Below are positions 4,313 to 40,928 of a DNA stretch of 64,000 bases, piece by piece. The stretch comes from Desulfuribacillus stibiiarsenatis (lineage in GTDB: Bacteria; Bacillota; Bacilli; Desulfuribacillales; Desulfuribacillaceae). A program made the position numbers and the translations under genes. The stretch spans positions 1 through 64,000 of the forward strand of contig NZ_MJAT01000037.1 in NCBI RefSeq assembly GCF_001742305.1. The letters run 5' to 3'. The stretch's first letter is position 1. Every line of letters starts with the position of its first letter. Below the pieces are notes generated by a model, which was given only the letters and a program-made list of their open reading frames with translations, was not told the DNA's origin and did no database searches.

Positions 4313-4375
4313 TTTATCTCAGCGGCGTTTACTAATATTCCAGTAAAAACTCCATCTGAACTAAGTTTTCTTTAT
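4313..4375 (-). repeat. Internally deleted copy of the ATAAAGAAAACTT repeat family (inverted)
   Basis: Read on the minus strand, this stretch begins ATAAAGAAAACTTAGTTCAG and ends GTAAACGCCGCTGAGATAAA, the two termini of the ~123-bp repeat units at 5012 and 19894, but the middle ~60 bases are missing. It lies between the divergent SOD and SGNH hydrolase genes. Like all other copies it is bounded by ATAAA at both ends. Confidence 0.8.
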
Positions 4376-5011: not shown

Positions 5012-5140
5012 GATAAAGAAAACTTAGTTCAGATGGAGATTTAACTCCACCTGAACTTTAGTTGGCACTTATTTCGAAGCTTGGCGGCACTTATCTCCCA
5101 CTTATAGAAGTGGGAGTATTAGTAAACGCCGCTGAGATAA
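5012..5140 (+). repeat. Full-length ATAAAGAAAACTT repeat element
   Basis: Single complete unit (5012-5135 plus the trailing ATAAA). It starts GATAAAGAAAACTTAG and ends AAACGCCGCTGA. Stem I: AGTTCAG(A)TGGAG with CTCCA(C)CTGAACT. Linker: TAGTTGGCACTTATTTCGAAG. Stem II: CTCCCACTT/AAGTGGGAG, enclosed by GGCGGC/GCCGC. The 3' end abuts the GTG start of the histidine kinase at 5148, and a stop codon lies one codon upstream of that start. Confidence 0.85.
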
Positions 5141-5147
5141 ATAGGGA

Positions 5148-19430: not shown

Positions 19431-19898
19431 ATGTTTACAAATATGCGACGCAAAGAAAAGATGATCAGTGAAAATGACACAAAAGAAATTTTAAACCGTT
19501 GCCAACACGGAACATTAGCCACAATAAGTGTCAATGGGTACCCTTATTCCGTACCATTGAATTATGTGTTCGACCAAAATCGTCTGTATTTTCATTCTGC
19601 TACAACAGGGCATAAGTTAGATAATATTCAACATAATCCGTTGGTCTCTTTTACGGTGATTGACTATTATCAATTGATTCCAGAGAAATTTGATGCACAT
19701 TATGATAGTGTGATTGTCTATGGGAAAGCTAGTATTGTTGAAGAAGTAGAAGGGAAGCGGAAAGCCTTACAATTGTTTATTAAAAAATATTCTCCTAATT
19801 ATGTTGAGCAAGGAAATCATTATATTGAAAGGGCAATGAATCATACAACTGTGATACAAATGCAAGTTGAACATATGACCGGCAAGCACGGTAGATAA
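19431..19898 (+). CDS. Pyridoxamine 5'-phosphate oxidase-like flavoprotein (NimA-type)
   Basis: A 155-residue protein of the split-barrel FMN-binding fold: an N-terminal LNRCQHGTLATISVNGYPYSVPLNYVFD strand pair and FHSATTGHKLDNIQHNPLVSFTVI, the pattern of nitroimidazole-resistance (NimA)-like proteins. Probable FMN- or heme-binding reductase of unknown substrate. The ribosome site is only moderate (GAGGTGA). Its stop codon TAA is the first part of the repeat array that follows, so the repeat inserted or grew exactly at the gene end. Confidence 0.8.
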   Translation: MFTNMRRKEKMISENDTKEILNRCQHGTLATISVNGYPYSVPLNYVFDQNRLYFHSATTGHKLDNIQHNPLVSFTVIDYYQLIPEKFDAHYDSVIVYGKASIVEEVEGKRKALQLFIKKYSPNYVEQGNHYIERAMNHTTVIQMQVEHMTGKHGR

Positions 19899-20015
19899 AG
19901 AAAACTTAGTTCAGATGGAGTTATTACGCTAGCTGAACTCTAGTTGCACTTATTTCGAAGCATGGCGGTACTTAGCTCCTACATATAGAAGTGGAGTACT
20001 AGTAAACGCTGCTGA
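19894..20015 (+). repeat. ATAAAGAAAACTT repeat array, unit 1 (122 bp)
   Basis: Starts GATAAAGAAAACTTAG and ends AACGCTGCTGA. Stem I AGTTCAG/CTGAACT, linker TAGTTGCACTTATTTCGAAG, stem II CTCC(T)AC/GTGGAG, outer stem GCGGT/GCTGC (pairs through wobbles). About 95% identical to unit 2. Confidence 0.9.
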
Positions 20016-20137
20016 GATAAAGAAAACTTAGTTTAGATGGAGTTATTACTCTAGTTGAACTCTAGTTGCACTTATTTCGAAGCATGGCGGTACTTAGCTC
20101 CTACATATAGAAGTGGAGTACTAGTAAACGCCGCTGA
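20016..20137 (+). repeat. ATAAAGAAAACTT repeat array, unit 2 (122 bp)
   Basis: Same layout as unit 1. Stem I reads AGTTTAG/TTGAACT: the base changes leave G-T pairs in place of Watson-Crick pairs, so the fold is kept. Outer stem GCGGT/GCCGC. Confidence 0.9.
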
Positions 20138-20260
20138 GATAAAGAAAACTTAGTTCAGATGGAGTTATTACGCTAGCTGAACTCTAGTTGCACTTATTTC
20201 GAAGCATGGCGGCAGTTATCTCTCACATAAAGAAGTGGGAGTATTAGTAAACGCCGCTGA
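20138..20260 (+). repeat. ATAAAGAAAACTT repeat array, unit 3 (123 bp)
   Basis: Stem I as in unit 1; its 3' half resembles the 5012 copy (outer stem GCGGC/GCCGC, stem II CTCTCAC/GTGGGAG with one wobble). A mosaic of the two subtypes, suggesting recombination or conversion between units. Confidence 0.88.
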
Positions 20261-20305
20261 GATAAAGAAAACTTAGGGAGTATTAGTAAACGCCGCTGAG
20301 ATAAA
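20261..20305 (+). repeat. ATAAAGAAAACTT repeat array, internally deleted unit 4
   Basis: Only the ends remain: GATAAAGAAAACTTAG joined directly to GGAGTATTAGTAAACGCCGC, then TGAGATAAA. Similar end-only derivative as at 4313-4375. The array stops 22 bases before the ilvE ATG. Confidence 0.85.
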
Positions 20306-40120: not shown

Positions 40121-40215
40121 AATAAAGAAAACTTGGCATTCGCCAAACCTCAGGCGATGAGAATGCCTTAGTTGCACTTATGTACATCAGATAAAATTTA
40201 TAAATTCTGATGTAC
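40121..40215 (+). repeat. Divergent copy of the ATAAAGAAAACTT repeat family
   Basis: Conserved head ATAAAGAAAACTT (40122-40134) and linker TTAGTTGCACTTAT (40168-40181). Both stems have unrelated sequence but still pair: stem I GGCATTCGCC ... GGCG/GAATGCC (40135-40167), stem II GTACATCAG/CTGATGTAC (40182-40215) with ATAAA directly after the 5' arm. This preserves the architecture of the copies at 5012 and 19894. Confidence 0.75.
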
Positions 40216-40216
40216 T

Positions 40217-40244
40217 AAAAAAACCACCCCAAATGGTGGCTTTT
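40217..40244 (-). terminator. Terminator of the HAD phosphatase gene
   Basis: On the minus strand, GCCACC/GGTGGT with a 6-base loop and seven T residues, touching the stop codon of the gene ending at 40243. Confidence 0.85.
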
Positions 40245-40863
40245 AAAAATCAGTTGCGATAATATCTTGAAAATTCTGAAACGGGAGATAGGATATCCCG
40301 TTTTTTTGACAATGGATTGCCAGCTTATCTTTAGCAAAGACACGGTCAGCAGTTTCGGCAGCTTGATAGTCGGTATATCCATCTCCTATGAATGTCACAT
40401 GGTCTAATTTCTGATACTTCTTAATAATATCTCGTTTACTAACGCCAAGATTTGGCGTACTCATTGAATGGTAGGGAAATGATGCTTTCCAAATACCGTT
40501 GTCAAAATACAATTCGTTAGCATAGACTTGAATATCTTCTATCATATACTGTTTGAGAATTGAATGAATCAGTAAAGAATAGCCATCACTTACGATCGCT
40601 ATTCTTTTTTGATGCCTTATGCAGTGGTTGAAAAATGCAGGGAAGTAAGGATCGATTTCAATTCCTTTGATGACTTGTAATAGCGTTTCTTCCGTCATAT
40701 CTAAGATGGATAGCATCTTATCCGTCATCTGAGGAGTAGAGAGACGACCAGATTCCCATTCTTGTTCTAAAATTGTAGTATCCGCCGTTGCGAAATGATC
40801 AATCATCGTAGCGCAACTACACTGCTTACTAATTGTTTTATCAAAATCAACGAGATATATCAT
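40243..40863 (-). CDS. MtnX-like HAD-IB phosphatase
   Basis: About 206 residues from ATG 40863 (GGTG upstream). HAD motif I is DFDKTI (residues ~6-11), motif II Ser in AIVSDGYS, motif III Lys in GVSKRD, and motif IV GDGYTDYQAA. The pattern matches MtnX-like phosphatases, which dephosphorylate 2-hydroxy-3-keto-5-methylthiopentenyl-1-phosphate in methionine salvage. No other mtn gene is near, so the substrate is uncertain. Confidence 0.85.
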   Translation of the reverse strand: MIYLVDFDKTISKQCSCATMIDHFATADTTILEQEWESGRLSTPQMTDKMLSILDMTEETLLQVIKGIEIDPYFPAFFNHCIRHQKRIAIVSDGYSLLIHSILKQYMIEDIQVYANELYFDNGIWKASFPYHSMSTPNLGVSKRDIIKKYQKLDHVTFIGDGYTDYQAAETADRVFAKDKLAIHCQKNGISYLPFQNFQDIIATDF

Positions 40864-40928
40864 GTTTGTCACCTATTTGTTGGATGGAAATACGTTATTT
40901 ATCCATAGTATAACACGAGAATAGGCTC

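Follow-up and report, generated by a model that had tools for sequence, protein, structure and literature searches.

A short repeat at 40122–40215 of the window (the whole 64,000-nt stretch of Desulfuribacillus stibiiarsenatis DNA analyzed here) belongs to a dispersed family in which two conserved blocks are joined by stems whose letters change freely while still pairing. On balance, we lean toward the family being a non-autonomous transposable element that is mobilized in trans by an enzyme acting on folded single-stranded DNA, in the "peel and paste" manner of IS200/IS605. Because no transposase was found, we infer single-strand transposition from the copies themselves, and favor it since they are inserted precisely after a target, have hairpin ends and no open reading frame (ORF), share the target in arrays, and show a lagging-strand bias in one genome.

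Architecture of the window copies

On the (+) strand, the 40122–40215 copy consists of ATAAAGAAAACTT, hairpin I, TTAGTTGCACTTAT and stem II, and on the (–) strand, it reads as stem II, a ATAAGTGCAACTAA linker, hairpin I and a AAGTTTTCTTTAT end (Table 1). As single-stranded DNA, stems I and II of this 94-nt copy both fold, at –18.1 kcal/mol (z = –5.8; 0 of 200 shuffles folded equally well), bearing out the observation in the first-pass annotation that the stem letters of this copy are swapped yet still pair. The constant head and linker that it described do recur as blocks; calling the linker "unchanged" was slightly too strong because one base differs in the other window copies, the linker being TTTAGTTGGCACTTAT (one G more) in the 5013 copy and CTAGTTGCACTTAT in the array units that begin at 19895, 20017 and 20139. 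The further claim that both stems had been swapped needs correction, as the part beyond the linker in the 5013 and 19895 copies (type A, ~125 bp) is not merely another stem; it is a larger, different module ending in GCCGCTGAGATAA, vs. the single simple stem of the 40122 copy (type B, ~95 bp). The copy at 5013–5143 also folds as single-stranded DNA (z = –7.3). The element has no ORF and no coding capacity.

Table 1. Coordinates of the element copies in the window, the parts of the type B copy and the adjoining terminator
Feature	Position	Strand	Basis or remark
Type A copy with internal deletion, opposite orientation, upstream of Cu/Zn-SOD gene	4314..4375	(+)	
Type A element, after GDSL-lipase gene	5013..5140	(–)	Target TTTAT on minus strand
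Tandem array, three type A units of 122–123 bp	19895..20261	(–)	Junction ATAA/TTAT common to units
Type A unit with internal deletion, at array end	20262..20304	(–)	
Type B element	40122..40215	(–), probable transposed strand	Sequence, block matches, folding
Conserved head ATAAAGAAAACTT	40122..40134	(+)	Element's right end AAGTTTTCTTTAT on (–)
Hairpin I with ACT/AGT foot	40130..40173	(+)	Folding and family-wide covariation
Conserved linker TTAGTTGCACTTAT	40168..40181	(+)	Reads ATAAGTGCAACTAA on (–); putative guide ATAAG, role proposed
Stem II	40182..40215	(+)	Left end of element on (–); folding z = –4.5
Terminator of HAD-phosphatase gene (gene 40243–40872, minus strand)	40216..40240	(–)	Sequence

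Pairing of the hairpin halves was measured over a broad set of inserts. The starting set of 298 inserts (198 distinct), in which some places were represented more than once, was reduced to 42 non-redundant inserts by dropping those with N, those shorter than 26 nt and then redundant ones. Halves from the same element had a mean duplex energy of –15.2 kcal/mol, vs. –10.1 kcal/mol when halves were exchanged among elements, and none of 2000 permutations matched the pairing of own halves (P ≤ 0.0005). This covariation confirms the central point of the first-pass annotation, that the stems change freely while pairing.

Type A copies of the D. stibiiarsenatis genome (e.g., L001, L022 and L028) vary by optional extra hairpins inside loops, namely CCTGTACCCCTTGTGGGT and a longer ACGTAATGGTTC..GAACCATT stem, which look as if they were modules gained and lost.

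Copy number and spread across Firmicutes

The D. stibiiarsenatis genome (3.12 Mb in 39 contigs) contains 42 exact two-block matches (26 forward and 16 reverse), vs. none for the reversed pattern used as a control, and the intervening segments pair and covary, as the first-pass annotation had anticipated for a genome-wide collection. With a shorter pattern, there were 44 matches, whose inserts, read by eye, divide into 36 of type A (stem letters AGTTCAG..CTGAACT) and eight of type B (GGCATTCGCC-like).

At least 120 stretches with both blocks occur in named genomes of other Bacilli and Clostridia, carriers among the matches listed being Bacillus and its relatives, Desulfosporosinus, Alkaliphilus, Natribacillus, Shimazuella, Tissierella and others. 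The two-block pattern was present in 16 of the 398 genomes of a phylum sample, and all 29 genomes of a Desulfosporosinus-genus sample matched a 2-kb query containing the element, most of them with separate matches to the element part. Type A hairpins are letter-identical between D. stibiiarsenatis and Alkaliphilus contigs (e.g., L036 and L100), and this identity across genera suggests horizontal spread of the element. Three plasmid searches returned one, one and no records. A pattern scan of viral contigs returned 26 stretches, which we take to be chance matches because the full TAGTTGCACTTAT block is missing from every one.

In several genera, multiple units follow one another in tandem arrays with a period of ~90–130 bp (L060, L069, L074, L106, L141 and L145). 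Adjoining an element array in genome G156, a complete 4.93-Mb chromosome assigned by inference to the genus Desulfosporosinus, is a multi-copy sequence of ~750 bp (L197 and L217, query positions 1–756; copies 98–99% identical) that is probably an insertion sequence.

Insertion sites, terminators and strand bias

On the complement strand, CTCAGCGGCG forms the start of type A, and TTAT stands immediately before it in nearly all copies, with farther bases varying. Across 26 distinct type A junctions in D. stibiiarsenatis, T was found at –4 in 26, T at –3 in 25, A at –2 in 26 and T at –1 in 25; in Alkaliphilus, T at –4 and A at –2 were each found in nine of nine type A junctions. The left flank of type B is a T-run that mostly ends in a purine plus a pyrimidine (T at –4 in 10 of 10 in one Clostridiales genome set), and the G-rich stretch upstream of it probably represents a terminator's 3′ arm. 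In a Natribacillus set (seven junctions), the final two bases depart from the type B target. The G156 logo, whose 36 rows for 28 elements include some false ones from overlapping regex starts, shows a loose left target, and the guide pairing proposed below would be imperfect there. At the right end, most copies have the element's own CTTTAT or CTTTAC on the complement strand, and in tandem arrays each unit begins at the TTAT closing the preceding unit, as would follow if the element's end itself served as a target.

An orthologous intergenic region of Desulfosporosinus includes an insertion site between a terminator and a AAGTATAAC box. Empty alleles (e.g., L222, L223, L226, L227 and L236) have ~8 to 10 bases between terminator and box, and the two clean filled alleles, L230 and L231, carry the element at that site without further duplication. 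The set comprised 20 loci, including L217 with an extra insertion and several with unrelated sequence at the site, and the comparison is between species rather than strains; it provides good, if not strain-level, evidence for insertion without duplication.

Such sites, some with and some without the element, speak against the other reading offered by the first-pass annotation, in which the family is a structured RNA (a cis-regulator or a 3′-UTR/terminator-associated RNA) that has been duplicated around genomes. Covarying stems, unpaired conserved blocks and the frequent position beside terminators would fit such an RNA. We consider it quite unlikely because no Rfam family matched either the window (gathering cut-off) or 10 loci (E up to 10), near-identical copies are dispersed and form arrays with a common TTAT, one hairpin I is joined to differing, unrelated second modules, and the element is present in every orientation class relative to genes (as defined by crude longest-ORF calls, with "type B" standing for copies not matching the type A stem). 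Between the two, single-strand DNA transposition is therefore the reading that we retain.

In the window, the T-tract of the HAD-phosphatase terminator directly abuts the left end of the 40122–40215 copy. Counting as type B whatever did not match the type A stem, a correct-sense terminator lay on the left-end side in 66 of 149 elements from other genomes and 15 of 24 from G156, and on the right-end side in 22 of 149 and 1 of 24, respectively. In D. stibiiarsenatis, one of 20 type A elements had a terminator at the left end, and the 12 elements entered as type B in this count include type A variants. The insertion sites of group IIC introns lie behind terminators and on the lagging-strand template, and a reverse-transcriptase-linked spread of this kind would fit both the abutting T-tracts and the presence of RVT_1 in 24 of 27 genomes, D. 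stibiiarsenatis included. It is nonetheless very improbable, given that three genomes (G154, G204 and G281) carry elements and lack RVT_1, that the element is too short for a group II intron, and that type A in D. stibiiarsenatis shows no terminator preference. A group II intron as such was rejected on the same three genomes and on the lack of an Rfam match on the element.

Using local GC skew as a guide to fork direction, we assigned the complement strand to the lagging-strand template for 26 of the 28 copies listed in G156, vs. 466 of 1004 intergenic TTTAT motifs on that strand (46%; P = 2.7 × 10^–7; intergenic by crude longest-ORF calls). The bias was kept in six of six copies with an antisense upstream gene (same crude calls) and in all 11 copies for which no terminator was detected, both small numbers. 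It was weaker in pooled type B (here, copies outside the type A stem match, with each locus contributing one element per strand and lineage labels entered by hand), at 50 of 68 in Bacilli, 17 of 26 in Desulfosporosinus contigs and 13 of 21 in other Clostridia. Type A in Alkaliphilus lies on the lagging-strand template in five of 10 cases. In D. stibiiarsenatis, type A (separated from "type B" by its stem match) has the opposite bias, in 22 of 28 (P = 0.013 vs. its own null of 0.55, also drawn from crude ORF calls). There, type A copies are oriented in the same sense as genes in 17 cases vs. four in the opposite sense, by the same calls, and orientation selection relative to genes could possibly underlie the reverse bias.

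A mobile element might also acquire the G156 bias as a by-product, by settling in T-rich, neutral intergenic sites after the terminators of mostly leading-strand genes, in which case single strands would not be required. In its favor are the excess of terminators at the left end, the opposite lean of type A in D. stibiiarsenatis, and a G156 sample in which about 80% of the coding bases (by crude longest-ORF calls) run in the direction of replication. We judge it improbable in view of the copies with antisense upstream genes or without terminators, few as they are, and of the lack of visible terminal inverted repeats.

Candidate enzymes, proposed mechanism and related repeats

We found no Y1_Tnp and no tnpB (PF07282) in the D. 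stibiiarsenatis genome, which holds 42 or more copies of the element; a TnpB-associated (omega RNA) element was rejected on the latter result. Y1_Tnp is present in 20 of 27 genomes (absent from D. stibiiarsenatis, G001, G125, G207, G281, G407 and G418), and none of 32 loci with a Y1 gene (12 + 20, a few genes being in both sets) had a canonical element alongside. G281, with 14 copies, has neither Y1 nor reverse transcriptase. A search for an autonomous copy via the type A left end in D. stibiiarsenatis yielded only five extra left ends (L303, L316, L318, L320 and L327), all of them internally varied or truncated short copies, and 800 kb of G156 gave no autonomous copy. Among the gene clusters that recur near elements, we recognized none as a transposase or recombinase from the printed sequences. 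Draft assemblies may lack the mobilizing enzyme, or it may have been lost or be of a different kind.

Integron attC sites act as folded single strands in which the outer boxes are conserved and the stems vary freely. Recombination at folded single-strand sites, of an integron-like or tyrosine-recombinase type, would, by analogy, account for the fixed outer blocks, the free stems and tandem arrays that recall attC arrays, and would suit both a genome without a Y1 enzyme and a TTTAT motif like that of the bcr repeats. The element's units differ in having no cassette genes between them and in being scattered after a 4–5-nt target, and the recurring neighbor clusters, judged from printed sequences, gave no recombinase; this explanation thus has a low probability in our estimation.

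Returning to single-strand transposition, the transposed (complement) strand would carry the target TTTAT, then an element made of the left-end hairpin(s), ATAAGTGCAACTAA, hairpin I and AAGTTTTCTTTAT, with boundaries after the target and after AAGTTTTCTTTAT. The enzyme would read the conserved blocks as single strands. By inspection, ATAAG in the linker may be a guide that pairs, across the hairpins, with the target's TTTAT and the CTTTAT at the element end, an arrangement that would leave the stems free to drift and the blocks not. A single ATAAG would serve both ends in type B, and a second one (GAGATAAG) would serve the left end in type A. An automatic left-end pairing test was noisy, with no clear consensus, and family-specific logos were used in its place. 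If so read, the family would amount to a natural experiment, spanning two bacterial classes, on a protein or guide that seems to recognize only particular fixed bases and leaves the paired ones to drift. The mover of TTTAT-associated repeats in Firmicutes becomes testable, with dozens of ready substrates for cleavage tests. A broader proposal, which we regard as doubtful, is that of a Firmicutes-wide class of single-strand-DNA elements with a conserved recognition end (27 fixed bases and an interchangeable hairpin) and swappable left ends, which would be mobilized by a not-yet-recognized enzyme other than Y1-HUH, would insert at terminator T-tracts too, and would share its system with bcr mobility.

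REPs are dispersed palindromes that are taken to serve a Y1 enzyme as single-strand substrates, and the element resembles REPs and REPINs in being made of dispersed palindromic units. A REP/REPIN-RAYT system was rejected, as D. stibiiarsenatis has no RAYT (Y1_Tnp) and the Y1 genes examined are not flanked by the element. Most REPs are assigned, in PMC3733652, to GTAG- and CGTC-tagged families. PATEs, ends-only derivatives of IS200/IS605, are described in parts of PMC7290912 as short and gene-less, with a hairpin per end and no terminal inverted repeats; like IS200/IS605, they insert 3′ of a short T-rich target, and a lagging-strand bias is expected. The element is likewise short and without genes, with a hairpin at each end, and inserts 3′ of a fixed, T-rich tetra- or pentanucleotide without other target duplication or, by eye, terminal inverted repeats. 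It differs from PATEs in that D. stibiiarsenatis has neither TnpA nor TnpB, one hairpin module is common to two unrelated left ends, hairpin letters vary freely between lineages, and type B favors terminator T-tracts.

The closest published description among those consulted is that of the Bacillus cereus repeats bcr1–bcr3, which are dispersed and intergenic, occur in tens of copies and have TTTAT-linked mobility (PMC6542083, PMC3446304); that mobility is worded in a passage of PMC6542083 as "site-specific recombination-like". The same sources describe bcr1–bcr3 as specific to the B. cereus group, whereas the element is broader. An approximate bcr1-like pattern occurred once each in three of 398 genomes of a class sample, and an approximate bcr1-like query matched Pseudomonas fluorescens and Pseudalkalibacillus hwajinpoensis plasmids with no B. 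cereus match; we regard this as a look-alike. In the open-access papers searched, we found no description of the element's blocks, and their exact letters gave chance matches only.

Other repeats lie near or resemble the element. In Pseudalkalibacillus decolorationis (L124, L132 and L149), it is nested in another dispersed repeat that is longer (..AGGTGCG / GCGCTGGAG..), a copy of which also occurs without the element in L132. On a P. hwajinpoensis plasmid (L356), a different repeat occurs at 1501 and again at 1850, both copies falling within 350 bp; its head, ATAAAGTGAAACTTCC, resembles that of the element and leads into a strong hairpin.
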